Shown: positions 1,920 to 53,963 of the stretch, piece by piece
Numbering within the stretch: position 1 is the stretch's first letter
Layout of the letters: each line of letters begins with the position of its first letter
Source of the DNA: a virus
Direction: 5' to 3' (one strand)
Length of the DNA stretch: 64,000 bases
Virus record (IMG/VR): IMGVR_UViG_3300013111_000141
Location: 32,761-96,760 of that record
Translations under genes and position numbers: made by a program
The notes under the pieces: generated by a model
Told to the model about the DNA's origin: nothing
The model's database searches: none
What the model saw: the letters and a program-made list of their open reading frames with translations, nothing else

Positions 1920-2221
1920 TATGCTTTTAACTTTAAATCTTCCTCCGTTACAATATCTTCATACCCATCATACTCACGAACATAAAACTTTAACCCCTCT
2001 GTAACATATGACAATTTCATATTATCAAACTCATATAAATTATGAGTTGGTTCTGACATCGCCATCACCTGTTTATGAAATGATTTCTCATCCCCATGCA
2101 AAAATTCATAAATTAATTCAGCATCCATTCTAAGTGATTGGGGTTTAATGGCAAATCCACTACCCCAACCAGCATGTATAAGAACCCCTACTTTACCATC
2201 TGCACTATAATATTTACCCAC
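1919..2221 (-). CDS. Hypothetical protein, 100 aa
   Basis: No family recognised. It is a soluble, moderately acidic protein with an N-terminal beta-rich segment (KVGVLIHAGWGSGF) and a charged C-terminus. Its start overlaps the end of the FadB-like gene by 8 nt, so it is probably translationally coupled to the beta-oxidation pair. Its stop abuts the predicted 5' end of the tmRNA acceptor half. The context suggests, but does not show, a role linked to the fatty-acid genes. Confidence 0.65.
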   Translation of the reverse strand: MGKYYSADGKVGVLIHAGWGSGFAIKPQSLRMDAELIYEFLHGDEKSFHKQVMAMSEPTHNLYEFDNMKLSYVTEGLKFYVREYDGYEDIVTEEDLKLKA

Positions 2222-4202
2222 CTACGTTCTCCACTAATTGCGAACCTTGTGAATGATATTGTTTAGTAATTTCTTTGTTTACTTCATCTGAATAATGTAA
2301 TGGTCCACCCCTAAATGGAGCAAATCCAGTACCAAAAATAATACCAGAATCTATAAGGTCAGAAGATTCTACAATACCCTCATCTAAACATAATTTACAC
2401 TCTGAAATAATTTTCCCTATTAACCTTGACTTTATCTCTATTTTAGGATCTGCATAAATCTTATCTACGGGTTTACCTTTATTATATATATAAAACCCCC
2501 TACCAGATTTAATACCCAATTTACCTTTGTCTACTAACTTCTTTAATCTCTTTGGAACAGTAATTCCAAGATCCTCACTTATTATATCCGTAACAAAATA
2601 ACAAACATCAAGTCCTACAGTATCTGCCAATAATAAAGGTCCCATTGGCATACCAAAATCAGTAAAAGAATTGTCAATTTCTTCTTTACTATATCCTTCA
2701 TCTAACATATTAATAGCCTCAATAAGTGTAGGCATTAACACACGATTAACTAAAAATCCTGGACTTGATTTAACTTTTAATGGTAACTTATCAATATGTC
2801 TACAAAATGACATAGACTTCTCTATAACATCCTCTGAAGTAATATCTGAATATACCACTTCAACCAAAGGCATTTTTGCAACTGGATTAAAAAAGTGTAT
2901 ACCAACTAATCTCTCAGGATTTTTCATTTCACTTGATAATACTTCCAACTTGATAGAAGATGTATTAGTGCCCAATATAGCGGTACTTTTCATTTCAGAT
3001 TCTAATTCACTATATAAGTGACGTTTAATATCCGCATTTTCAACAATAGCCTCAATGACTATATCTGCGGAAGATATACCATATCCATTTTTATCAGGAA
3101 TCAACCTATCATACACTTCATTGATTAAATAATCCTTCCCAGAAAATCTTTTTGCATAAAATTTATACGATCTTTTCATTGCGGCAGCTATGGTGTTATC
3201 ATCAATATCCTGTAAAGTCACCTTATATCCCCTTAGAGACGCCCACATTGCAATATCTCCACCCATTGCACCAGCACCTATAACGTGGACATGTTTAAGA
3301 TCTAACTTAGATTTATCACCAGAAGATTTAAGTAAATCCTGTAACTTAAACACTCGTAATAAATTCTTCGCAGTATCTGTCATTGCTAACTTAGAAACTG
3401 ACTCCGCCTCTGCATTCATAAGATGATGCTCATTATATCCATATTTTTCCCATATATCAACTAAAGCATATGGTGCTGGATAGTGTGATTTTTTTACCTC
3501 TTTCCTTAAAGTTCTACGCAATTGCATTGATAATAACCTTCTACCAATACCAGAATTCAATACATAATCTAATTTATCTGGTCTTCTAACTGGTGGACAC
3601 TTTGCAAGTACATCTTCCGCAGATTTAACTAATAAACGTTCAGGAACCGCATAATCAACTAATCCCATCTTTTTTGCTTGATATACTGATAAAGTACGTC
3701 CACTTAACATCATACCCATAGCCTTAATAACACCAAGAACTCTAATAGACCTAACAGAACCACCAAATCCAGGATGTATACCCAACTTAACTTCAGGAAA
3801 TCCGACTCGGATATTAGGTGAATCTAATATAATTCTATAATCACATGATAATGCAAGTTCCAATCCACCACCAAGACACAATCCATTAATTAATGCTAAT
3901 GTAGGAAATTCCATGTCATCAATTAACCACATCACTTCTTGTCCTTTAGTAATGGCTTCATAAGCATCATCATACTCATGAAAATCCTTAAATTCTGTAA
4001 CATCAGCACCAGCAATAAACCCAGTTGATTTATCAGAACAAATAACCATACCATCAGGATTATCAGATTTAACCTCTAATAATACATCTTTTAATTCCGT
4101 TAATACTTCACCAGATAATACATTCATACTACCATAAGAATAATCAAAATGTACCCATGCTATATTGCTAAAATATTTTAATTTGAAATGTTTATAATTC
4201 AT
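2214..4202 (-). CDS. fadJ: Bifunctional enoyl-CoA hydratase / 3-hydroxyacyl-CoA dehydrogenase
   Basis: Catalyses hydration of trans-2-enoyl-CoA and NAD-dependent oxidation of the resulting 3-hydroxyacyl-CoA, the second and third steps of beta-oxidation. The hydratase domain is at residues 1-190, with NGLCLGGGLELAL and GFPEVKLGIHPGFGG; Glu115 and Glu137 match the two catalytic acids of E. coli FadB. The Rossmann motif GAGAMG is at 309-314, the catalytic His436 is in GIHFFNP, and the C-terminal dehydrogenase domain follows (PGFLVNR, GMPMGPLLLADTVG). At 662 aa it is a little shorter than FadB/FadJ (about 715-730) but seems intact. It lies 3 nt downstream of the thiolase gene, recreating the host fad arrangement. 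FadB versus FadJ type is not resolved. Confidence 0.93.
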   Translation of the reverse strand: MNYKHFKLKYFSNIAWVHFDYSYGSMNVLSGEVLTELKDVLLEVKSDNPDGMVICSDKSTGFIAGADVTEFKDFHEYDDAYEAITKGQEVMWLIDDMEFPTLALINGLCLGGGLELALSCDYRIILDSPNIRVGFPEVKLGIHPGFGGSVRSIRVLGVIKAMGMMLSGRTLSVYQAKKMGLVDYAVPERLLVKSAEDVLAKCPPVRRPDKLDYVLNSGIGRRLLSMQLRRTLRKEVKKSHYPAPYALVDIWEKYGYNEHHLMNAEAESVSKLAMTDTAKNLLRVFKLQDLLKSSGDKSKLDLKHVHVIGAGAMGGDIAMWASLRGYKVTLQDIDDNTIAAAMKRSYKFYAKRFSGKDYLINEVYDRLIPDKNGYGISSADIVIEAIVENADIKRHLYSELESEMKSTAILGTNTSSIKLEVLSSEMKNPERLVGIHFFNPVAKMPLVEVVYSDITSEDVIEKSMSFCRHIDKLPLKVKSSPGFLVNRVLMPTLIEAINMLDEGYSKEEIDNSFTDFGMPMGPLLLADTVGLDVCYFVTDIISEDLGITVPKRLKKLVDKGKLGIKSGRGFYIYNKGKPVDKIYADPKIEIKSRLIGKIISECKLCLDEGIVESSDLIDSGIIFGTGFAPFRGGPLHYSDEVNKEITKQYHSQGSQLVENVGG

Positions 4203-4205
4203 AAG

Positions 4206-5510
4206 TTATCTCTTTAAATTTTCAACTAATATTGCACCACCTTGCCCATGCCCAATACATAAAGATGCAACCCCATAATGACCACCATTTGATTCTAACG
4301 TCTTAATTAAATGATATACTATCCGTGTTCCAGAAGCACCTACAGGATGACCCATACTAATAGAACCACCATGAACATTTAGTTTTTCATCAGGTATTAA
4401 CCCAAATGGTTCATCCAATCCAAACTCAGATAAACAATAATCCACATCATTCATTGCCCTTGTACAACCAATAACTTGTGATGCAAAAGCTTCATTTAAT
4501 TCCCAACTATCAATATCATCACATCGTAACCCATTTCTCATAACAAGAGGAACTATTGACTGAACTGGACCCAATCCCATCTCTGATGGATCTACTCCAG
4601 CCCACTTAGTATCAATAATTTTTGCAATAGCTTTATCACGTAACCCATACTTATCCAAGGCATCCTCACTTGCCAACAAAACAAATGAAGCACCATCCGT
4701 AATAGGTGAAGAATTACCCGCAGTCACATTACCAAATATTTTATCAAAAACTGGTCTTAATTTCCCTAATTTTTCAATAGTGTTCTTAGATCTAACAGAT
4801 TCGTCTTTATTATAAAAATTCCCATCAGTATCATATATAGTAACAATCTCATCCTCTAATACATTAGTATTTTGTGATATCGACGCTTTCATATGACTGT
4901 TTAATGAATAATCATCCATATCATTTCTAGATATATTAAACTTATATGCCAAATTCTCAGCAGTCTGACCCATTGATAAATTAATAGTTGGATCTTTTAA
5001 TGCACGTAATAAACTAATCACTGGGACTAATAACTTAGGTCTAAACTTAAGTAACACAGACAACTTCTTAGATAATGTCTTAGCTAATGTAAATTCAGAC
5101 AACCACATAGTCATATCATCATTAAATAATAATGGTGCCCTACTCATAGTTTCCGTACCACCAGCAATAATCAAATCGGACTGTCCACAAGATATACTCC
5201 TATATGCCGAATCAATTGACTGCAAACCAGAAGCACAATTTCGTTGTACCGTATATGCCGGTATATTAACATTAAGACCTAATCGTAATGCTAACAATTT
5301 TGCAATATTACACTCATCAGCGTTAGGATTCATACAACCAACAACCAATTCATCCACATCATCATTACTAATATCATTACGAATTAACATAGGTCTAACC
5401 GCCTGAATCGCCAAATCCAATGCCTTAAACTTTCCAGGACTTCCCTTCGCCTTTAAAAAAGGTGTCCTACTACCATCTACAATATATACATCATTTAACT
5501 TGTATTTCAT
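4206..5510 (-). CDS. fadA: Acetyl-CoA acyltransferase (3-ketoacyl-CoA thiolase)
   Basis: Cleaves 3-ketoacyl-CoA with CoA to acetyl-CoA and a shortened acyl-CoA, the last step of beta-oxidation. Thiolase signatures are complete: nucleophile Cys92 in QRNCASGLQ, His388 in GGSISMGHPVGASG and Cys418 in CIGHGQGGA. At 434 aa it matches the FadI/AtoB size range. The gene ends 3 nt before the FadB/J-like gene, so both subunits of a trifunctional-type complex are encoded together. It could also work biosynthetically as an acetyl-CoA acetyltransferase. The hydratase/dehydrogenase partner favours degradation. Confidence 0.93.
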   Translation of the reverse strand: MKYKLNDVYIVDGSRTPFLKAKGSPGKFKALDLAIQAVRPMLIRNDISNDDVDELVVGCMNPNADECNIAKLLALRLGLNVNIPAYTVQRNCASGLQSIDSAYRSISCGQSDLIIAGGTETMSRAPLLFNDDMTMWLSEFTLAKTLSKKLSVLLKFRPKLLVPVISLLRALKDPTINLSMGQTAENLAYKFNISRNDMDDYSLNSHMKASISQNTNVLEDEIVTIYDTDGNFYNKDESVRSKNTIEKLGKLRPVFDKIFGNVTAGNSSPITDGASFVLLASEDALDKYGLRDKAIAKIIDTKWAGVDPSEMGLGPVQSIVPLVMRNGLRCDDIDSWELNEAFASQVIGCTRAMNDVDYCLSEFGLDEPFGLIPDEKLNVHGGSISMGHPVGASGTRIVYHLIKTLESNGGHYGVASLCIGHGQGGAILVENLKR

Positions 5511-20345: not shown

Positions 20346-20374
20346 ATAATAACACAAAAACAACTATAAGTCAA
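20346..20374 (-). promoter_or_regulatory. Host-type promoter for the glycine-zipper gene
   Basis: TTGACT (20374-20369), 17-nt spacer, TATTAT (20351-20346), minus strand. It overlaps the 3' end of the acyltransferase-hydrolase gene. Confidence 0.75.
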
Positions 20375-22646
20375 GTCTTTTTTCAATAAAAATTGAAATT
20401 CTTTCCCATATTAAATCCGAATTATTATACAATATACCATGACAATCTGAACCAATAATATGCATTTCCTTATCAGAGGAAACCACATTATTATATATAT
20501 AATCAGCACCCCTAACTGAAACCAATGAATCATCTTTAGAATATATAATCAACATAGGAACTGTTACATTAGATAATGTACTCTTAATACTTTTAACCAA
20601 TCTTCCTACCTCATATATACTAAACGTTGGTATTATCCAATAATTAATATGTTCATTCTCAGGGATATTCTTAAAAAATGTTTTAACTCCATTACATGAT
20701 AATAATGTACTAACAACCTTATTAATACCGTTAATTATAGGTACAAACTTAATTCTAGTATCATCATAAAAAATAGGAGCAGATATAACAACTATAGATT
20801 TAACCCTAGAATCATTTATAAACTCTTTACGTAATGCAATTGCACCACCAGTAGAAAACCCAACAATCACAATATTTTTAGACAACATAGAAGCCATGTC
20901 AAAATAACTATAAACCGATTTTATCCAATCATTATGGTTATATTGCATCAACTCATATGGTGACGTACCATGACCAACGATTCTAGCACCAACAACAATA
21001 TAACCAATTCCACACAAATAATCACCAAACCCCCTAACTTCTGCCGGTGATGACAATAATCCATGAATTAACAATATTACCACACCATTAGACTTTTTAG
21101 GAAATAAAATAAAAGGATTATCATCAGAAGTATTAATTTCAGAAAATTTAGAATTATATTTATCATTACTATATAATTTCTTATCATATGTTAACGATAG
21201 TTTCTGATCATCCAATAAATGTAATGCTATATCTTTATTAGTAACCTTATGCATATCACTAATAACACTCTTAACAACATTACCAACCAAAGAAACTGGT
21301 TGTATCTCATTATAATATACAACTAATAAATTCTCAACCCTAACTGTTAATGGATCAACATTAAAATTAAACTTACCAGATAAATATATAGTATTACTCC
21401 CTATGACCAATACACCTTGTTTCTCAAGAGACTCAATATATTTTAATACATCTACATTATTACCACTTAATATATCACCATAAAGATGTGGAGTTAATAA
21501 CCCACTATGTAATCTAATTCCAGACTTCTGTTGTAATGTCTTTAACACCAAATATAATTCTTTATGTAATTGATCCTTGGAAATAGATACTATATTTTGT
21601 TTAAATCTATACATCAATAAGCAAGATATTAAATGACTTAAATTAATAGTAACATAAGAATAAATACTCTTAGTGTAATAGTCACGTGTAAGATTAGAAC
21701 ACTTTATAAGATGCTTATGCAACATATCGACTTTCCAAGACTTATCAACATCACCAATAGAAAACACATCATCTAAGGATTTTATAGAATCAGTAAATGT
21801 TTCAGTTAACGACGACTTCCATGAATGCCAAATACCGGAGGTAGATATCACTTTGCTCATAACAACATCCATATCAGTATCTTTAGTAATTAAATTACCC
21901 TCAACTAACAACTCTTCTGTTTGTCGTAATGTGAGTCCATTAGAAATATATTCAACTGCCTTCAATAAAACATTATCAGTTACACGCAAAGGATAAAACG
22001 TTATATTAGATGCAACTATATTAGTAGGTTTTGATACTGCATCCAATAACTCATCCAAACTATTAAAATCTAATTCCTTTTGCCACATTAATAATCTATC
22101 CATGTCCATATCTCTATGAGCATTACGAACTATAAACTTAAACACCTCCAACCCATGTGACAAAACAGCTGCCCCAGTATGTTGTTTCCGTACTTTCATA
22201 GTTGTTTGACATAACATATTATAATGTCCTTCATCATCAACAACCCTATGATCCTTTACCATTCCACCTTCAGGAAAAATAACAACTTTATGTCCGTGTA
22301 ATATTTGTTTCGCTAAAATAGGAAATAATCTGGGGTGATTATGAGGGACAACTCCTAACTTACTTAAATAGGATGATAATATATTATCATTTTTAAAAAA
22401 TTCACCAGACCCAACAGAATAACAATAACTACCATTTTCTTCATGTATCAAATATTGAGGGATAAATGTTTCTATACGAGAAAAATGATTAAATACAAAT
22501 ATACTACCATCGTCAATATTAATATCAGAATGAATATTAATATTAATTCTTAATAATCGTTTCAGAATTCTAAATGAACGTATAGATAATCTATACATAC
22601 GTTTATCTATATCAATCCAATCACGATTATACTTAAACCCACTCAT
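20364..22646 (-). CDS. Acyltransferase - alpha/beta hydrolase fusion
   Basis: A 760-residue two-domain lipid enzyme. The N-terminal part resembles PlsC-type glycerolipid acyltransferases: NHFSRIET at 53-60 (NHx4D motif with Glu in place of Asp) and FPEG at 124-127. A middle region of about 300 residues is unrecognised and mostly helical. The C-terminal 240 residues are an alpha/beta hydrolase like monoglyceride lipases or carboxylesterases: HGLLSSPAE oxyanion region, GFSTGG with Ser598, Asp706 and His736. It could remodel or recycle membrane acyl chains. It overlaps the methyltransferase gene by ATGA. Domain calls are solid; the combined reaction is inferred. Confidence 0.8.
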   Translation of the reverse strand: MSGFKYNRDWIDIDKRMYRLSIRSFRILKRLLRININIHSDINIDDGSIFVFNHFSRIETFIPQYLIHEENGSYCYSVGSGEFFKNDNILSSYLSKLGVVPHNHPRLFPILAKQILHGHKVVIFPEGGMVKDHRVVDDEGHYNMLCQTTMKVRKQHTGAAVLSHGLEVFKFIVRNAHRDMDMDRLLMWQKELDFNSLDELLDAVSKPTNIVASNITFYPLRVTDNVLLKAVEYISNGLTLRQTEELLVEGNLITKDTDMDVVMSKVISTSGIWHSWKSSLTETFTDSIKSLDDVFSIGDVDKSWKVDMLHKHLIKCSNLTRDYYTKSIYSYVTINLSHLISCLLMYRFKQNIVSISKDQLHKELYLVLKTLQQKSGIRLHSGLLTPHLYGDILSGNNVDVLKYIESLEKQGVLVIGSNTIYLSGKFNFNVDPLTVRVENLLVVYYNEIQPVSLVGNVVKSVISDMHKVTNKDIALHLLDDQKLSLTYDKKLYSNDKYNSKFSEINTSDDNPFILFPKKSNGVVILLIHGLLSSPAEVRGFGDYLCGIGYIVVGARIVGHGTSPYELMQYNHNDWIKSVYSYFDMASMLSKNIVIVGFSTGGAIALRKEFINDSRVKSIVVISAPIFYDDTRIKFVPIINGINKVVSTLLSCNGVKTFFKNIPENEHINYWIIPTFSIYEVGRLVKSIKSTLSNVTVPMLIIYSKDDSLVSVRGADYIYNNVVSSDKEMHIIGSDCHGILYNNSDLIWERISIFIEKRLDL

Positions 22647-24676: not shown

Positions 24677-25381
24677 TTATTTATTTCGTCTATTACCTAT
24701 AGAATCACCATAAGCTACTGCCAATGGTAACAACTTAGCTAAAGGTAAACTAATCTTTAAAACATTAAGTTTCATATCTCTATCTAACAATATAGCAGAT
24801 AAAAACCTATGGTGTCCATCAATAATGCGATTATCCGATGATACTATTAATACTTTGGAATTTAATAATTTTATAGTCCCATTAACACCATTCTTAGCTA
24901 TAGTACCAAGTCCCTTATCAAAATATATTTGATCCTGAATTGGAGTCAAATCTTTCGCTGAAATTTTATCACGTGTAACTTTTACCACATCATCCCGTTC
25001 ATTACCATCATTCTTTTTTAACCCAGCCTTTAAAAACTTATCAGCCTTATCACCTGATAATCCTTCTGGAAATGGATTTGACGGAACTGTATCTTTAGAA
25101 AATGGTTTTATTATATCCAATTTTCCCTTTGACAATCTCTTTTGAAATTTATCAATATCTTTAGATGTTATAACGGGCATATCCTTTCTCTTAGTATGAC
25201 CTTTATATGATAGTTTCTGAGCCAAAACATAATTCTTATCAAAATCTGGAATATCTTTATCTAGTGTTGGTAGTTTAGATAACGCATATTCCCTTGCATC
25301 TTCTAAGGACGTAGTAACAACTTCAAGTTTACCAGCCGCAGCACCACCATTTTCCATTAAATAACTCTTAAATGTCTTCAT
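24677..25381 (-). CDS. ParB-like nuclease-domain protein with capsid-targeting-like N-terminus
   Basis: The C-terminal 100 residues hold the ParB/sulfiredoxin-like core, ending in the signature DNRIIDGHHRFLSAILL. The first ten residues (MKTFKSYLME, then NGG) closely resemble the T4 capsid-targeting sequence MKTYQEFIAE, which gp21 protease cleaves after L/I-x-E. The start overlaps the stop of the upstream ligase-like gene by ATGA, and that gene has a late promoter. Together these suggest a protein packaged in the head and injected. The biochemical activity (nuclease, CTPase or DNA binding) is not shown. Confidence 0.75.
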   Translation of the reverse strand: MKTFKSYLMENGGAAAGKLEVVTTSLEDAREYALSKLPTLDKDIPDFDKNYVLAQKLSYKGHTKRKDMPVITSKDIDKFQKRLSKGKLDIIKPFSKDTVPSNPFPEGLSGDKADKFLKAGLKKNDGNERDDVVKVTRDKISAKDLTPIQDQIYFDKGLGTIAKNGVNGTIKLLNSKVLIVSSDNRIIDGHHRFLSAILLDRDMKLNVLKISLPLAKLLPLAVAYGDSIGNRRNK

Positions 25382-26595
25382 TTCTCCCAACCTTTTATTA
25401 TATCTTTTGAAAAATTATTTGCTGAAAATTCCATTCGGTTTACCAATTTAACAGCATTATCATCACGATCAATTGCAACAAATCCCTCTGAACCAGATAC
25501 TTTAAATCCATTCTTAGTTCTTACAAAGGTGGATATATCAGACACACTCTCCATTTTATCTATTAAAATCTCTTTAGCATCAACTAAATGATTTTGTAAT
25601 TCAAACATCAATCTTAAATTCTTTTTATTAGAATCCGAAAAAAAACTTAAAACATCTTCTCTTGATTTAGACTTTTTAGCTTTACCTTTATCCGACTTCA
25701 ATTTGTCAATATCTTTTTGATACTTATCTGAAATATATTTAATAAGTTCATCTGTATGTTTTCTAGTATTTGTAATCTTCTCTTGTGACCTAACTTTAGT
25801 ATTATTAAACGTATTAATCAACTGATTAATAACTGAATTGGTAGAAACATCATTTAATGTTGTTGCAGATATTTTTCTAAATATCTTACCAGCATCAGAT
25901 AAATGTGATGTAACTATATCAGTCTCAGATTTAGTCATAGTAGCAGTACCAGACAAATCAGTAAGATCAGCAGTTCTCATCCATACACTTGAAGTCTTTT
26001 TAAAATCACGAATACTAATATTAAATGATGCAGACATATTCTCAAAAGAATCACCAGTATATTTTGTATGCCAAACAACTCCTATCTTTGATTGTAATAT
26101 AGAACCAGCCTGTGATGTTGGTACAGCGTATACTATCGTATTAGGATGAAAGGTAACATAAGACTCACCATCAATTGTTTCATTCTTAAGATCAGAATTA
26201 GTATACATAATATCACCTTGCACGACACCCTTAATACCAAGTTTCTTTAATTCAGTATATGCAATCTTTAACTTACTAGACAAATCACCAGAAGTATCAT
26301 CATCTATATCACTATGTGACTTGTATACTTTTGGATTCTTATTAAATATACCCTTCTTCGCAACAAAAAACTGTCCATCTGTCGGGTCAATACCAGCAAA
26401 CACAGCAGGTGCGCCATCCCACTTAACAGTCACTGAATGTGAAGTATTAGAATTACCAGACAACATATCTCTCAATGACCTTAAAGCGTTAATGGCACCA
26501 CGTGTACCATTAACGCCACCATCAAGGACAAGATCCTCAATATGAGTCATATGAGTATTTTTAGCTTCTGTTACATATTCTTGAAATGTTAACAT
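25378..26595 (-). CDS. Ligase-like nucleotidyltransferase with capsid-targeting-like N-terminus
   Basis: 405 residues. The pattern of covalent nucleotidyltransferases (DNA/RNA ligases) is visible: motif I VKWDGAP (Lys about residue 58), motif III-like GVVQGDIMYT, motif IV SEGFVAID and motif V VKLVNR. A long Lys-rich helical segment lies between motifs III and IV, an unusual insertion. The N-terminus MLTFQEYVTE-AKN resembles the T4 capsid-targeting peptide with a gp21 cleavage site. A TATAAATA late promoter lies 27 nt upstream. Likely a late, head-internal protein; ligase activity is inferred from motifs only. Confidence 0.7.
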   Translation of the reverse strand: MLTFQEYVTEAKNTHMTHIEDLVLDGGVNGTRGAINALRSLRDMLSGNSNTSHSVTVKWDGAPAVFAGIDPTDGQFFVAKKGIFNKNPKVYKSHSDIDDDTSGDLSSKLKIAYTELKKLGIKGVVQGDIMYTNSDLKNETIDGESYVTFHPNTIVYAVPTSQAGSILQSKIGVVWHTKYTGDSFENMSASFNISIRDFKKTSSVWMRTADLTDLSGTATMTKSETDIVTSHLSDAGKIFRKISATTLNDVSTNSVINQLINTFNNTKVRSQEKITNTRKHTDELIKYISDKYQKDIDKLKSDKGKAKKSKSREDVLSFFSDSNKKNLRLMFELQNHLVDAKEILIDKMESVSDISTFVRTKNGFKVSGSEGFVAIDRDDNAVKLVNRMEFSANNFSKDIIKGWEK

Positions 26596-26621
26596 ATATT
26601 ACAACTCTAATTGTAAAATTA

Positions 26622-26629
26622 TATTTATA
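26622..26629 (-). promoter_or_regulatory. T4-type late promoter (TATAAATA)
   Basis: An exact TATAAATA box on the minus strand, about 27 nt before the ligase-like gene and just after isocitrate lyase. It is the same box seen before capsid and tail genes. Confidence 0.75.
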
Positions 26630-26632
26630 ATA

Positions 26633-27910
26633 TTAAAACTGTTCCTCTTCAGTAGAACCGTCCATAGCAGTAACAGATGATTTACCACCTTGTATAACAT
26701 TTGTAACAGAATCAAAATAACCAGCACCAACTTCCTCTTGATGCCTTGCAAATGTATATCCATCTTTAACCGAAGCAAACTCAGGTTCTTGGACACCCTC
26801 CACATAAGCAGTCATACCACGTTCAACATAATCCTTTGACAACTCAAACATAGAATGCCACATATCATGAATACCAGCCAACGTAATAAATTGCCATTTG
26901 AACCCCATCTCCCCCAATTTTTGTTGATAGTGTCTTATTTCTTCGTCACTTAAATTCTTCTTCCAGTTGAATGACGGAGAGCAATTATACGCCAACAATT
27001 TTCCAGGGTACTGTTGATGGATTGCCGTAGCGAACTTCTGTGCCTCTTCTAAGTTCGGGACCGCAGTTTCGCACCATAACATATCAGCATACGCCGCATA
27101 AGATAATCCCCTTGATATCGCCTGATCTATTCCGCAGTTAACTCGGAAAAACCCTTCCTCAGTTCTCTCCCCTGTGACGAATTCCTTGTCACGGACATCA
27201 ATATCAGATGTTAACAAAGTTGCTGCATTAGCGTCGGTTCTTGCGATAATAACGATAGGCACTCCCATAACATCAGATGCCAATCTGGCAGAAATTAATT
27301 TCTGAATCGCCTCTTGTGTTGGTACTAACACCTTACCACCCATATGTCCACATTTCTTAGCAGATGATAATTGATCTTCTAAATGAATACCCGATACACC
27401 ACACTCTATCATAGATTTAGTCAACTCATAAGAATTCAACACCCCGCCAAACCCAGCCTCAGCATCAGCGATAATTGGAGCAAAGTAATCAATATCATTT
27501 CTTCCCTTATTCCATTGAATTTCATCTGCTCTACGGAATGTATTATTAATACGTCTTACCATCATTGGTACTGAATTATATGCATATAATGATTGATCTG
27601 GATACATTGTTTCTGACGAATTACCATCAGCAGCAACTTGCCAACCTGATAAATATATAACCTTAATACCAGCCTTAACTTGTTGCATAGCCTGTCCAGC
27701 AGTTATAGCCCCCATAGAATTAACATATCCATCTTCGTTAATCAATTTCCAAAGTTTTTTAGAACCCACGGTAGACACTGTATATTCTTCATCAAACGAA
27801 CCGCTTAACCTAATAACATCTTCTGCCGAATAATCACGTTTGACATTCAACCAACGTTCATTCTCACTCCAATCTTTCTCTAAAGTTCGTACTCTACCCA
27901 ATTGTTCCAT
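26633..27910 (-). CDS. aceA: Isocitrate lyase
   Basis: Splits isocitrate into glyoxylate and succinate, the first step of the glyoxylate shunt that allows growth on acetyl-CoA. The active-site signature KKCGHMGGK is intact. So are [10 protein letters not shown], DADAxGFGG-type metal residues ([10 protein letters not shown]), NCSPSFNW and the C-terminal lid ending GSTEEEQF. At 425 aa it is full length and close to the E. coli-type enzyme. The middle of the gene is visibly richer in G and C than its neighbours, suggesting later acquisition. No malate synthase is in the window. It complements the beta-oxidation genes at 2.2-5.5 kb. Confidence 0.97.
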
Positions 27911-32190: not shown

Positions 32191-32947
32191 TTTTTTCTCC
32201 TATTTCTTTTAAATTTTTAAATTTAGTTGACTTTTCGTTCAAGTAACTGTTATATTTATATAACTCTTCAATAATAAAATACTCAGATATATTATCTTGT
32301 GTTGAATCTATCATATCATACGAATCCACACAATCAAAATACTCACTTAACATATCACCACCTTGCAGAAAATCAAATACATGTTCTTCCACATTCATAT
32401 TTTTTCTAATGGTATCAAATAATAATTTACCATCCTTAAAGTTTGACGGTAATCCTTTTTTAAAATTATCATAATCATTAGAAACTGCGGCAACTCTCAT
32501 CTTCGAAGCTGACATACCAATCACTCCATCCGAATCCGGATCACGTTTTCCAGCAGATTTCACTTCAATACTTGTAAAATTATAATACCCATGTCTAGAC
32601 TTAATATCATTATACTTATCCATTAACATTTTAAATTCATTAACACGGTCAGAACCAACAACCATAACAACATTATTAAAACCATCATCATATAATTTAA
32701 CTAAAATATCAAAAACATTACGTATATTATCATCATTAATAATACTTTTAGAATGTTTTGGAAACATTTTCTTTATAAATTTAACCTTATCTTTCAATGA
32801 AAGTGGGTTTTTCTTAGAATCATGACTCTTTGATAAATACATTCTATATTCACCAGAAGACACAGACGCCAACGCATCTAATAATTTACCGTGTCCTGTT
32901 GTTGGTGGATTCAATCTACCAAATGAAAAGGTAATTTCTTTACTCAT
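32180..32947 (-). CDS. Cytidylyltransferase-like / NMN adenylyltransferase-like protein
   Basis: The HxGH nucleotidyltransferase fold is visible as FSFGRLNPPTTGHGKLL (TxGH variant), with a VVGSDRVNEF segment and GMSASKMRVAA, which corresponds to the ISSTxxR motif. Such enzymes attach AMP or CMP to small molecules, for example NMN to NAD. The C-terminal 90 residues are an unassigned helical extension. Start ATG 32947 is chosen over a TTG five codons upstream. A role in NAD or cofactor metabolism is inference. Confidence 0.7.
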   Translation of the reverse strand: MSKEITFSFGRLNPPTTGHGKLLDALASVSSGEYRMYLSKSHDSKKNPLSLKDKVKFIKKMFPKHSKSIINDDNIRNVFDILVKLYDDGFNNVVMVVGSDRVNEFKMLMDKYNDIKSRHGYYNFTSIEVKSAGKRDPDSDGVIGMSASKMRVAAVSNDYDNFKKGLPSNFKDGKLLFDTIRKNMNVEEHVFDFLQGGDMLSEYFDCVDSYDMIDSTQDNISEYFIIEELYKYNSYLNEKSTKFKNLKEIGEKNVS

Positions 32948-45555: not shown

Positions 45556-46599
45556 CTACATCTCTCTCAGAACATCCATATATACATCATTCAATATAAC
45601 CTTCAATCTAGATTTATCTACATTAACATCATATCCATCTATATATTTTGATAATAATGATATAGTATCATCTTCTAATGATAATACATTTTCATTTAAT
45701 CTATCTTCAATTTCAATATCATCTATAATATCAACATCGGCTACATTATTTTTATACAACATATCAATAAATAAATCAAACTTATATATATCCAACTTTT
45801 CACGAACAATAACCTTAACAAATTTACCAGTATATTTAAGATAATCAACAGTCATATCATCATAATATTCAATCTTCTCAAACATGGTATAAGTATTCTG
45901 TATAAATTCTAACTCACGTGTCTCTGTATCAAATATATGGAATCCTCTTTTATCTTTATAATCCGACCAAGTTAACTCATAAGGATTACCTAGATATGTA
46001 ACATTTCCATCTGTAGATTTATGATGAAAATGTCCGCTATATACAACATCAAATTTATTAAATTTAGATTTATCAACACCATCAATACATTTAATACCAC
46101 CATTCATCAAAAACCCAGATATCTCTAAATGCCCCATTAAAATATCAGCATTAGTATCAGATATATGACTATCCACTTCATTATAATTATCATCATTTAT
46201 CCACGGACACATACATATATCAACCCCATCAAACTCAACAGTTTCAATAGAAGAATAAATTTTAGGTGAGTGTACATTATTACTATCTATCAAAGAATCC
46301 ATTGCATTAACTTTATTAGAATTCTTAAAATAAGTATCATGATTACCTATAATAATATGCATATCAATTTCATTATCATAAATCTTTTTAAGAAACCCAT
46401 TCTTAAATTTATGCAATATATTAAAATTTATAAATTTCCTACGATCTACTACATCACCCAAATGAATAACCGTATTAATATGTCTATCCTTTAATTCTTT
46501 AAAAAATATATTATCATAAAATTTCATCATATAATCATAAAATAATAAAGAATCGTTCCTGGCTCCCCAATGTGTATCAGTTATCAATGCTATTTTCAT
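45556..46599 (-). CDS. 47: Recombination endonuclease subunit (T4 gp47, SbcD/Mre11-like)
   Basis: Metal-dependent nuclease. The phosphoesterase motifs are DTHWGAR, GDVVDRR, GNHDTYF and GHFHHKS. Start ATG 46599 fits the family N-terminus (MKIALITDTHWG), rather than an upstream GTG. Works with gp46 to make 3' tails for UvsX. Confidence 0.95.
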   Translation of the reverse strand: MKIALITDTHWGARNDSLLFYDYMMKFYDNIFFKELKDRHINTVIHLGDVVDRRKFINFNILHKFKNGFLKKIYDNEIDMHIIIGNHDTYFKNSNKVNAMDSLIDSNNVHSPKIYSSIETVEFDGVDICMCPWINDDNYNEVDSHISDTNADILMGHLEISGFLMNGGIKCIDGVDKSKFNKFDVVYSGHFHHKSTDGNVTYLGNPYELTWSDYKDKRGFHIFDTETRELEFIQNTYTMFEKIEYYDDMTVDYLKYTGKFVKVIVREKLDIYKFDLFIDMLYKNNVADVDIIDDIEIEDRLNENVLSLEDDTISLLSKYIDGYDVNVDKSRLKVILNDVYMDVLREM

Positions 46600-47281
46600 T
46601 ATGTTTCTCACTTTTCTTAAGTTTTACAGGTTTAACACTGTTACGTGATATACGCTTATCTTCCTGAAATTTCTCAAATTCATGTAAGAATTTATCAATA
46701 TTACTTCTATTATCCCTAATATAATCTAAATAAGAATCCTTAACGCTAGTAACGTCATTATCATTCATACCATCAGATTCTAATGCATTAGAACTATATA
46801 TCGATTTATATTTGATATATAATTGTTTCTTCTCTTTCTGAATTCTTCTAATAAATGCAAAATATATTATCTGAGTGAAATATGAAAACGGATTATCTGA
46901 CTTGTCAGGATTAAAATTATTAATATATAATAAACAATTCTCAATACCATCACTAACCATATCATCTCTATAAGTATAATTTATAAAATTAGGTCTGTAC
47001 GATAAACCCTCGGATATTTTCATTATACATTCACATATATATGATGATACTTTAGGCGAAACTCTATATAAATGATAACTCTGTCGGGGTATTGGTAAAA
47101 TAAGATTTTCTAAAATATATATATTAATGTCTATATCGATAATATACCATGAGTAACGATTACCAACAGTATCTGAATAAGACTTATAATTAACATATGA
47201 TGTCCTATATATTATCATCTGTTTTAAAAACTCAGAATTATCAACATAATGTTGGGTTTTTTTAATATACCCTTTCTTCAT
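46577..47281 (-). CDS. 55: Late-transcription sigma factor (T4 gp55)
   Basis: Directs host RNA polymerase to TATAAATA late promoters. The conserved core is clear: ISEGLSYRPNFINYTYRDDMVSDGIENC, then NPFSYFTQIIYFAFIRRIQKEKKQ (sigma region 2 type). The N-terminal 90 residues look longer than in T4 (185 aa versus 234 here). A perfect promoter lies about 35-60 nt upstream. Seven late boxes in this window are its expected targets. Confidence 0.92.
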   Translation of the reverse strand: MKKGYIKKTQHYVDNSEFLKQMIIYRTSYVNYKSYSDTVGNRYSWYIIDIDINIYILENLILPIPRQSYHLYRVSPKVSSYICECIMKISEGLSYRPNFINYTYRDDMVSDGIENCLLYINNFNPDKSDNPFSYFTQIIYFAFIRRIQKEKKQLYIKYKSIYSSNALESDGMNDNDVTSVKDSYLDYIRDNRSNIDKFLHEFEKFQEDKRISRNSVKPVKLKKSEKHNENSIDN

Positions 47282-53059: not shown

Positions 53060-53704
53060 TTATAACTTATTTAAAAAATCTTCAAATATTAATATTTTAG
53101 TCTTTTCTAAATTAGTCATTTTTTCACGTTTAATTATATTATGATAATCATTTATATTACATTCTTGTATAACACCATTATTCCAAACCCAATCTACCCC
53201 TTCCATTATCCCATTAACAAATGCATCTGGTGCTGATGGATCAGCAACTATATCAGCAGCTGTTGCTAAATAGAAATCATCTTGTACCGTATTAACACCT
53301 TTACTTGTATTAACCGTACCCATACCCCTAGAAGAAACACCTAGTTTAGCACCTTCATTTATTAAATTCTTTACAATAGACCCATATGGTGTTTCCGACA
53401 TTATTTTAGCTTTTCCAATGAAGTTATTACCATCCTTATGTAAACTTTTAATTATATGTGAAACTCTTTCTAAATTAATAGATGGACCATTTGGATGTCC
53501 AAGTTCACCAAATGCACGACCTTTGTTTATATAATTATCACTATATCGTTTAACTTCTTTTTCTAAAATTTCTGTAGGATATAATCTACCGTTGCGGTTT
53601 TTTATACCAGATTGTAAAAAAATACCTTCAATATATAAACTTTTAGATTTATCATCTTCTACAATATAACTTAAATCTTCATGAATTTCTGTTATAAGTT
53701 TCAT
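53060..53704 (-). CDS. 21: Prohead protease (T4 gp21)
   Basis: Serine protease that cleaves scaffold, capsid and internal proteins at L/I-x-E sites. Catalytic His lies in FGELGHPNGPSINLERVSH and Ser in LGVSSRGMG. The length, 214 aa, equals T4 gp21 (212). Its own N-terminus contains LITE, a potential self-cleavage site. Confidence 0.94.
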   Translation of the reverse strand: MKLITEIHEDLSYIVEDDKSKSLYIEGIFLQSGIKNRNGRLYPTEILEKEVKRYSDNYINKGRAFGELGHPNGPSINLERVSHIIKSLHKDGNNFIGKAKIMSETPYGSIVKNLINEGAKLGVSSRGMGTVNTSKGVNTVQDDFYLATAADIVADPSAPDAFVNGIMEGVDWVWNNGVIQECNINDYHNIIKREKMTNLEKTKILIFEDFLNKL

Positions 53705-53705
53705 G

Positions 53706-53963
53706 TTAGAATCCTTTTCTCTTATTCATTGAAATTGAACGTTTCCTATTACTTTGAGCTCTCTTTCCCTTACTTTTTTTCGCTGATTTCTTATTTCTAA
53801 GCTTCATCATTATTCGTTCTTTATTATCTATACGTACTTCTTTGCCGTTTATGACTTTATATCCACCTTTAGTGGATATTTTTTTAACAACACGTTTTCC
53901 TTTTCTGATAACTTTTTTTCTAGTTATTCCTTCAAGTATCAAAAAATCTATAAAATTTTCCAT
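53706..53963 (-). CDS. Small basic head protein with capsid-targeting-like N-terminus
   Basis: 85 residues. The first eleven (MENFIDFLILE) resemble a gp21-cleavable capsid-targeting peptide. The rest is extremely Lys/Arg-rich (RKGKRVVKK, KKSAKKSKGKRAQSNRKRS). It lies between 20 and 21, where T4 encodes small core proteins 67 and 68. A DNA-binding internal head protein is the likely role. Confidence 0.65.
   Translation of the reverse strand: MENFIDFLILEGITRKKVIRKGKRVVKKISTKGGYKVINGKEVRIDNKERIMMKLRNKKSAKKSKGKRAQSNRKRSISMNKRKGF

Follow-up and report, generated by a model that had tools for sequence, protein, structure and literature searches.

We describe a pair of overlapping genes in a 64,000-nucleotide stretch of viral DNA (hereafter the window; positions 32,761 to 96,760 of IMG/VR record IMGVR_UViG_3300013111_000141), which belongs to a virus contig of 96.8 kb whose source we read as a marine T4-like phage. 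The genes encode a DUF6267 protein and a ParB/sulfiredoxin-like protein, and on balance we favour a reading in which both are basic enzymes made late in infection, packaged into the head, trimmed there and injected into the next host, with DUF6267 acting as a ligase-type nucleotidyltransferase. This reading builds on features seen in the sequence: N-terminal leaders of the T4 capsid-targeting type on both proteins, a late promoter ahead of the operon, a prohead protease gene in the same window, motifs that are invariant among relatives, and conserved pairing of the two genes.

Late operon and N-terminal leaders

Gene 1 (DUF6267, 405 aa; 25378–26595, minus strand, start at 26595; assigned with PF19782, AlphaFold2 and Foldseek) and gene 2 (ParB/sulfiredoxin-like, 234 aa; 24677–25381, minus strand) share an ATGA in which the stop of the first overlaps the start of the second (25381–25378, minus strand), as the initial annotation of this DNA had reported. 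An exact T4-type late promoter, TATAAATA, also claimed there, lies on the minus strand at 26629–26622, beginning 34 nt upstream of the first ATG, and 11 close relatives have it at this same position (−34). Raw counts of TATAAATA were rejected as proof of late promoters because the motif is rarer in the window than expected by chance (18 observed versus 26 expected, no enrichment). The box is informative by placement only: 8 of the 12 minus-strand boxes lie at most 100 nt ahead of the start of a gene, where 1.9 would be expected, a placement reached in 0 of 500 Markov samples. Seven of these eight gene-proximal boxes are intergenic; six precede structural genes (sheath, two tail-tube, scaffold, major head and Ad2 connector) and the seventh precedes the DUF6267/ParB-like operon. 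The pair was also correctly described as distant from the structural genes, with the head module (gp18, gp19, gp20, a small basic protein, gp21 protease, gp22 and gp23) at 50–59 kb, more than 20 kb away. This module contains a gp21-like prohead maturation protease (53060–53704, minus strand; phrog_207, E = 1.5e-78), presumed to be the leader peptidase, and a gp55-like sigma candidate at 46577–47281 gives a weak match.

The first ten residues of both proteins follow the register of the T4 capsid-targeting peptide, with aromatic residues at positions 4 and 7, an aliphatic residue at 8 and E10, a resemblance already noticed in the initial annotation: MLTFQEYVTE in DUF6267 (26566–26595, minus strand; predicted cut before AKNTH) and MKTFKSYLME in the ParB-like protein (25352–25381, minus strand; predicted cut before NGG). 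We take the T4 peptide to be MKTYQEFIAE, the letters quoted by that annotation. Work on T4 assigns packaging to residues 4 and 7 of this peptide and processing to residues 8 and 10, with gp21 cleaving on the C-terminal side of L/I-x-E (PMC9026906). The earlier suggestion of an x-E site suited to gp21 held for gene 2, where LME is canonical, and only in part for gene 1, where VTE is a near match. The predicted mature-end peptides are AK|NTHMTHIEDLVLDGGVNGTR for DUF6267 and NGGAAAGK for the ParB-like protein.

Scored among relatives (F/Y/L at 4, Y/F/H/N at 7, L/I/V/M at 8 and E10), the register was found in 38 of 74 DUF6267 N-termini, 13 of 27 ParB-like and 18 of 132 NMNAT-like; across 73 distinct DUF6267 leaders, P3 was L or I in 52 of the 71 sites scored, and Ala occupied P1′ in 35. 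Leaderless DUF6267 orthologs of cyanophages have MAKNTH or MSKNTH as their N-terminus, which coincides exactly with the predicted cut, and the leader is therefore a separable module. A DUF6267 tree built without the leader implies about three gains or losses of it, at least two on well-supported branches, and gene 2 retains its leader where DUF6267 is leaderless.

Made late from a gp55-type promoter, the two proteins would be drawn by their leaders into the prohead core, like T4 proteins with capsid-targeting peptides. A gp21-like protease would then cut after E10, leaving basic mature enzymes in the head (predicted isoelectric point (pI) 9.0 and 44 kDa for DUF6267; 9.6 and 25 kDa for the ParB-like protein) that would enter the next host alongside the DNA. 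Given the shared T4 head-loading tag, both are probably injected with the DNA, and their packaging in the head appears likely from the sequence. The T4 internal proteins IPI–III and Alt have the same leader key positions, prohead protease, late promoter and basic mature products, whereas the window's cargo (nucleotidyltransferase-like and ParB-like) is unrelated to them in sequence. Basic charge would also suit proteins that are packaged but mainly structural, filling the core or condensing DNA as internal proteins whose enzyme folds have degenerated, and in two relatives of gene 2 the protein is fused to a tail rich in Lys and Arg that would fit this role. However, the catalytic motifs described below are nearly invariant down to 25% identity and are retained by leaderless, presumably cytoplasmic orthologs, which makes a mainly structural role improbable in our judgement.

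DUF6267 as a candidate ligase-type nucleotidyltransferase

Gene 1 is a full-length member of DUF6267 (PF19782; E = 7.7e-106, 355 bits against a cut-off of 27), which is also T4-GC71 of cyanophages and phrog_455. Relatives are present in 468 phage records, of which cyanophages make up nearly all and the remainder includes phages of Pelagibacter, Methylophilales and Stenotrophomonas, and IMG/VR contributes several hundred contigs or more. The targeting leader sets the window protein apart from most cyanophage members; among cultured phages, Stenotrophomonas phage DLP6, Pelagibacter phage HTVC008M and Methylophilales phage Melnitz encode a DUF6267 with a leader. The family was previously without an assigned function, and it is not mentioned in the literature searched, which left out most subscription journals.

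Nucleotidyltransferase motifs I, III, IV and V, which the initial annotation had read in gene 1 as KWDG, GVVQGD, EGFV and KLV, are all present and in order, with the conserved acidic residue and Lys. Alignments place motif I at K58-W-D-G (26413–26424), a motif III-like Q126-G-D at 26212–26220, motif IV at E370-G-F-V (25477–25488) and motif V at K383-L-V (25441–25449), all on the minus strand. K58, D60, G61, Q126, D128, E370, G371, V373 and K383 are invariant in an alignment of 31 diverse sequences reaching down to 25% identity, as is H176TxYxG. Because they are conserved in relatives, neither these motifs nor the GHHRFLSA of gene 2 can be attributed to chance. In the AlphaFold2 model (predicted local distance difference test (pLDDT) 87.8, predicted template modelling score (pTM) 0.83), each motif lies in a strand or at a strand edge; residues 1–11 are disordered, as expected of a leader, and the rest is confidently modelled. 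An all-helical insertion (residues 222–349; 25549–25932, minus strand) is much reduced in the orthologs of P-SSM2 and Syn19.

The initial annotation had proposed comparing both proteins with ligases and ParB, and these do rank among the nearest solved folds, without a significant match. For DUF6267, no match of Foldseek against PDB was significant, yet a single superfamily dominated the ranking: near the top stood archaeal DNA ligases and T4 Rnl1, together with human ligases I and IV, the human capping enzyme guanylyltransferase and the adenylation domains of NAD-dependent ligases. Against viral models (BFVD), the significant matches were DUF6267-type proteins, including a DUF6267–NMNAT-like fusion of phage S-PM2, and RNA and DNA ligases recurred among the non-family matches (E of 0.3 or more). 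With hhalign, motif IV fell on E-G-Y-V of T4 RNA ligase 1, although not significantly. Sequence searches of PDB, Pfam and NCBIfam gave no ligase match and no strong ParB family match, and weak matches to PF03201, PF22333 and phrog_2205 were dismissed as chance or coiled-coil.

From the motifs and the model, we consider it likely that DUF6267 is a nucleotidyltransferase, and it is probably a new branch of the ligase type, in which a large helical insertion is present and no C-terminal domain follows motif V. It is like T4 RNA ligase 1, ATP-dependent DNA ligases and mRNA guanylyltransferase in its ordered KxDG, motif III, EGxV and K-[LV]-V, but differs in having no significant sequence or structure match to them, neither an oligonucleotide/oligosaccharide-binding (OB) domain nor any other C-terminal domain beyond motif V, and a unique HxxHxED N-terminus in addition to the helical insertion. 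No OB-fold domain with motif VI was recognised in the roughly 20 residues that follow motif V; such a domain is not universal in the covalent nucleotidyltransferase superfamily. In an enzyme of the ligase, RNA-ligase or capping type, K58 would carry the nucleotide, and here the helical insert may replace the usual OB or C-terminal domain.

Known KxDG-type enzymes act on DNA or RNA ends, and this specificity, together with the ParB-like partner and the basic charge, fits nucleic acid better than a role of DUF6267 in nicotinamide adenine dinucleotide (NAD) or nucleotide metabolism alongside the NMNAT-like protein (for example, at an adenylyl transfer step). The latter would account for the conserved neighbourhood and the fusion with an NMNAT-like domain, yet we think it unlikely. 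As a nucleic acid-directed nucleotidyltransferase, DUF6267 would most plausibly seal or cap ends, for example where host defences have cleaved host tRNA or phage DNA during the first minutes of infection, and the ParB-like protein would most likely be a nucleoside triphosphate-binding or end-processing partner. Injected T4 Alt and IPI modify RNA polymerase and block restriction, respectively (PMC9026906), and by the same logic a ligase-like enzyme that enters with the DNA would be suited to mending broken tRNA or DNA early on. End repair is a tentative suggestion; the reading as a whole offers a testable role for a family present in hundreds of phage records.

Leader-tagged proteins in virion proteomes

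The leader pattern was set before the S-CREM2 proteins were read and was then applied to all 147 of them (OR473000). It picked four, namely gp6 (S-adenosylmethionine (SAM) hydrolase), gp13, gp14 (kinase) and gp154 (NMNAT-like), and all four are within the published virion list of 52 (Fisher p = 0.014). The picks in S-SZBM1 were _140, which was detected in virions, _191 and _192, which were not, and _162, a probable chance match. Leader and virion presence track each other in S-CREM2 and, in S-SZBM1, in the contrast between leadered _140 and the leaderless, undetected DUF6267 protein _141; the leader accounts for four puzzling S-CREM2 virion proteins. Regulatory enzymes of this kind (NMNAT-like, kinase, SAM hydrolase) recur in cyanophage virion proteomes, the NMNAT-like protein having been found experimentally in virions of S-SM1, S-SZBM1, S-SCSM1 and S-CREM2, and the leader would explain their presence. 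A looser pattern was rejected, as it adds false positives. Another S-CREM2 virion protein, gp12, annotated as Cas9-like, carries RFASFMAE|AA near its N-terminus.

The proteomes also bear on whether the two proteins might remain unpackaged, as cytoplasmic proteins of late infection whose N-terminal peptide has another role. DUF6267 stands among replication genes and, in S-SZBM1 (_141), is leaderless and undetected in virions; in S-PM2 it is leaderless and fused to an NMNAT-like domain, which S-PM2 virions lacked (PMC3037559). The exact T4 register with E10, the virion location of all four S-CREM2 picks and a promoter that is elsewhere intergenic only before structural genes speak instead for packaging, and a cytoplasmic location seems unlikely to us.

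Several results nonetheless count against packaged enzymes of the proposed kind. P3 of the gene 1 cut site is V rather than L or I; the association in S-CREM2 loses significance with the looser pattern (p = 0.17); and since the leadered _191 and _192 of S-SZBM1 went undetected, a leader is no guarantee of detection. No DUF6267 protein occurs in any virion proteome checked, among which only that of S-SZBM1 had an identified DUF6267 gene, a leaderless one. As to the enzymatic assignment, hhalign of DUF6267 against T4 Rnl1, Rnl2, gp30 and the Rnl1 family profile gave nothing significant, with a polynucleotide kinase control equally weak, and no Foldseek match to a solved structure was significant for either protein (best E 0.09 for DUF6267 and 0.05 for the ParB-like protein).

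More broadly, the short T4-type leader could be the tag by which marine T4-like phages equip themselves with a broad and interchangeable set of enzymes for injection (NMNAT-like, kinase, SAM hydrolase, ADP-ribosyltransferase-like, ParB-like), with DUF6267 as a new ligase-type branch that gained it; we put this forward as a serious possibility that falls somewhat short of probable. In that case, packaging of DUF6267 would be an evolvable trait that can be read from sequence. It would provide a simple sequence rule for phage enzymes carried inside the head and would predict more of them in uncultured phages. Targeting peptides and DUF6267 were each already known, while their connection, the mobility of the tag and the prediction of virion enzymes appear to be new: in the literature searched, capsid targeting and cyanophages were treated together only in a T4 review.

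The leader pattern matches 8 of the 118 genes on the contig that contains the window, where 1.1 would be expected, and three of the 8 lie at 1.4–3.6 kb, outside the window. These three are minus-strand genes (contig G000:C1, 1424–3617) for a 165-aa protein beginning MKSFNRFINE|GRNTWYRGHKK, a 133-aa protein (phrog_23027 module) and an 87-aa basic protein. The 165-aa protein looks ADP-ribosyltransferase-like by eye, and a search with it gave only 4 close relatives and no family match. Further MKTF/MKTY starts occur at the contig edge. Between the portal and protease genes of the window, in the position of T4 gp67, an 85-aa basic protein (53706–53963) has the leader-like start MENFIDFLILE|GITRKK.

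The ParB-like partner and gene neighbourhoods

The ParB signature GHHRFLSA, as called initially, is present in gene 2, where D188-G-H-H-R-F193 (24803–24820, minus strand) forms a nucleotide-binding-type motif that is invariant in 31 relatives. ParBc_2 (PF08857) matches 9 of these 31 weakly (best E 0.039), and the solved structures closest in fold, none of them a significant match, are pNOB8 ParB-N, nucleotide-bound sulfiredoxin and ParB with CDP (E 0.05–0.5; probability 0.98 for the best). In other proteins, the ParB/sulfiredoxin fold binds CTP, ATP or GTP (PMC12704722). Gene 2 has the invariant DGHHR in common with this ParB-CTPase group, to which its nearest folds point weakly, and differs from canonical ParB in being leader-tagged and paired with DUF6267; Pfam recognised no helix-turn-helix or C-terminal dimerisation domain in it, and no ParA partner was recognised by eye among the neighbouring open reading frames.

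Relatives of gene 2 were found at 51 IMG/VR loci and in none of the annotated phages. The GHHR domain itself is fused to an NMNAT-like protein in Stenotrophomonas phage DLP6 and is weakly matched in DarB-like and PLxRFG multidomain phage proteins. At locus L118 (9536–10684), one fusion protein has the leader MKNFKRFITE and an ADP-ribosyltransferase-like domain ahead of a ParB-like relative, and an E|GKGGAAAG junction lies inside it; its similarity to the 165-aa protein encoded on the window's contig is weak (E = 0.001).

DUF6267 is encoded near gene 2 on the same strand in 51 of 53 gene 2 loci, mostly overlapping it or at most 5 nt away, and across these 51 loci the direction of transcription puts DUF6267 first in 46 and the ParB-like gene first in 5. 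Looking for the same pair and N-termini in other phages, as had been advised, thus recovered both. The idea of a two-protein system stood as far as this conserved pairing goes but not as a stand-alone unit: the pair belongs to a wider leader-tagged set that takes in NMNAT-like proteins, SAM hydrolase, kinase, and ADP-ribosyltransferase-like and basic proteins. The two genes were also rejected as a universal pair, since most DUF6267 loci lack gene 2.

Leader-tagged NMNAT-like relatives are encoded beside DUF6267 or fused to it. The NMNAT-like/cytidylyltransferase virion proteins of cyanophages (T4-GC190) share leader type and neighbourhood with DUF6267 and are joined to it in S-PM2 and to the ParB-like GHHR domain in DLP6, but their fold is different, and the member in the window phage (32180–32962, minus strand) is leaderless and not adjacent to the pair. 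In the RefSeq S-PM2 genome (NC_006820, 4992–6771), DUF6267 is split over two annotated genes, whereas the other S-PM2 entry holds one 591-aa NMNAT-like fusion, probably a sequencing or annotation difference. Three further loci have DUF6267 fused behind a cupin-like domain, which is a separate gene in phage Melnitz.

Elsewhere, the contig carries metabolic genes that are rare in phages (window 2214–5510 and 26633–27910; G000:C1 1691–2701), encoding FadB-like and thiolase proteins of beta-oxidation, isocitrate lyase and an HpcH/HpaI aldolase of the malyl-CoA-lyase type. A 760-aa protein at window positions 20364–22646 combines an acyltransferase-like N-terminus with an alpha/beta hydrolase C-terminus.
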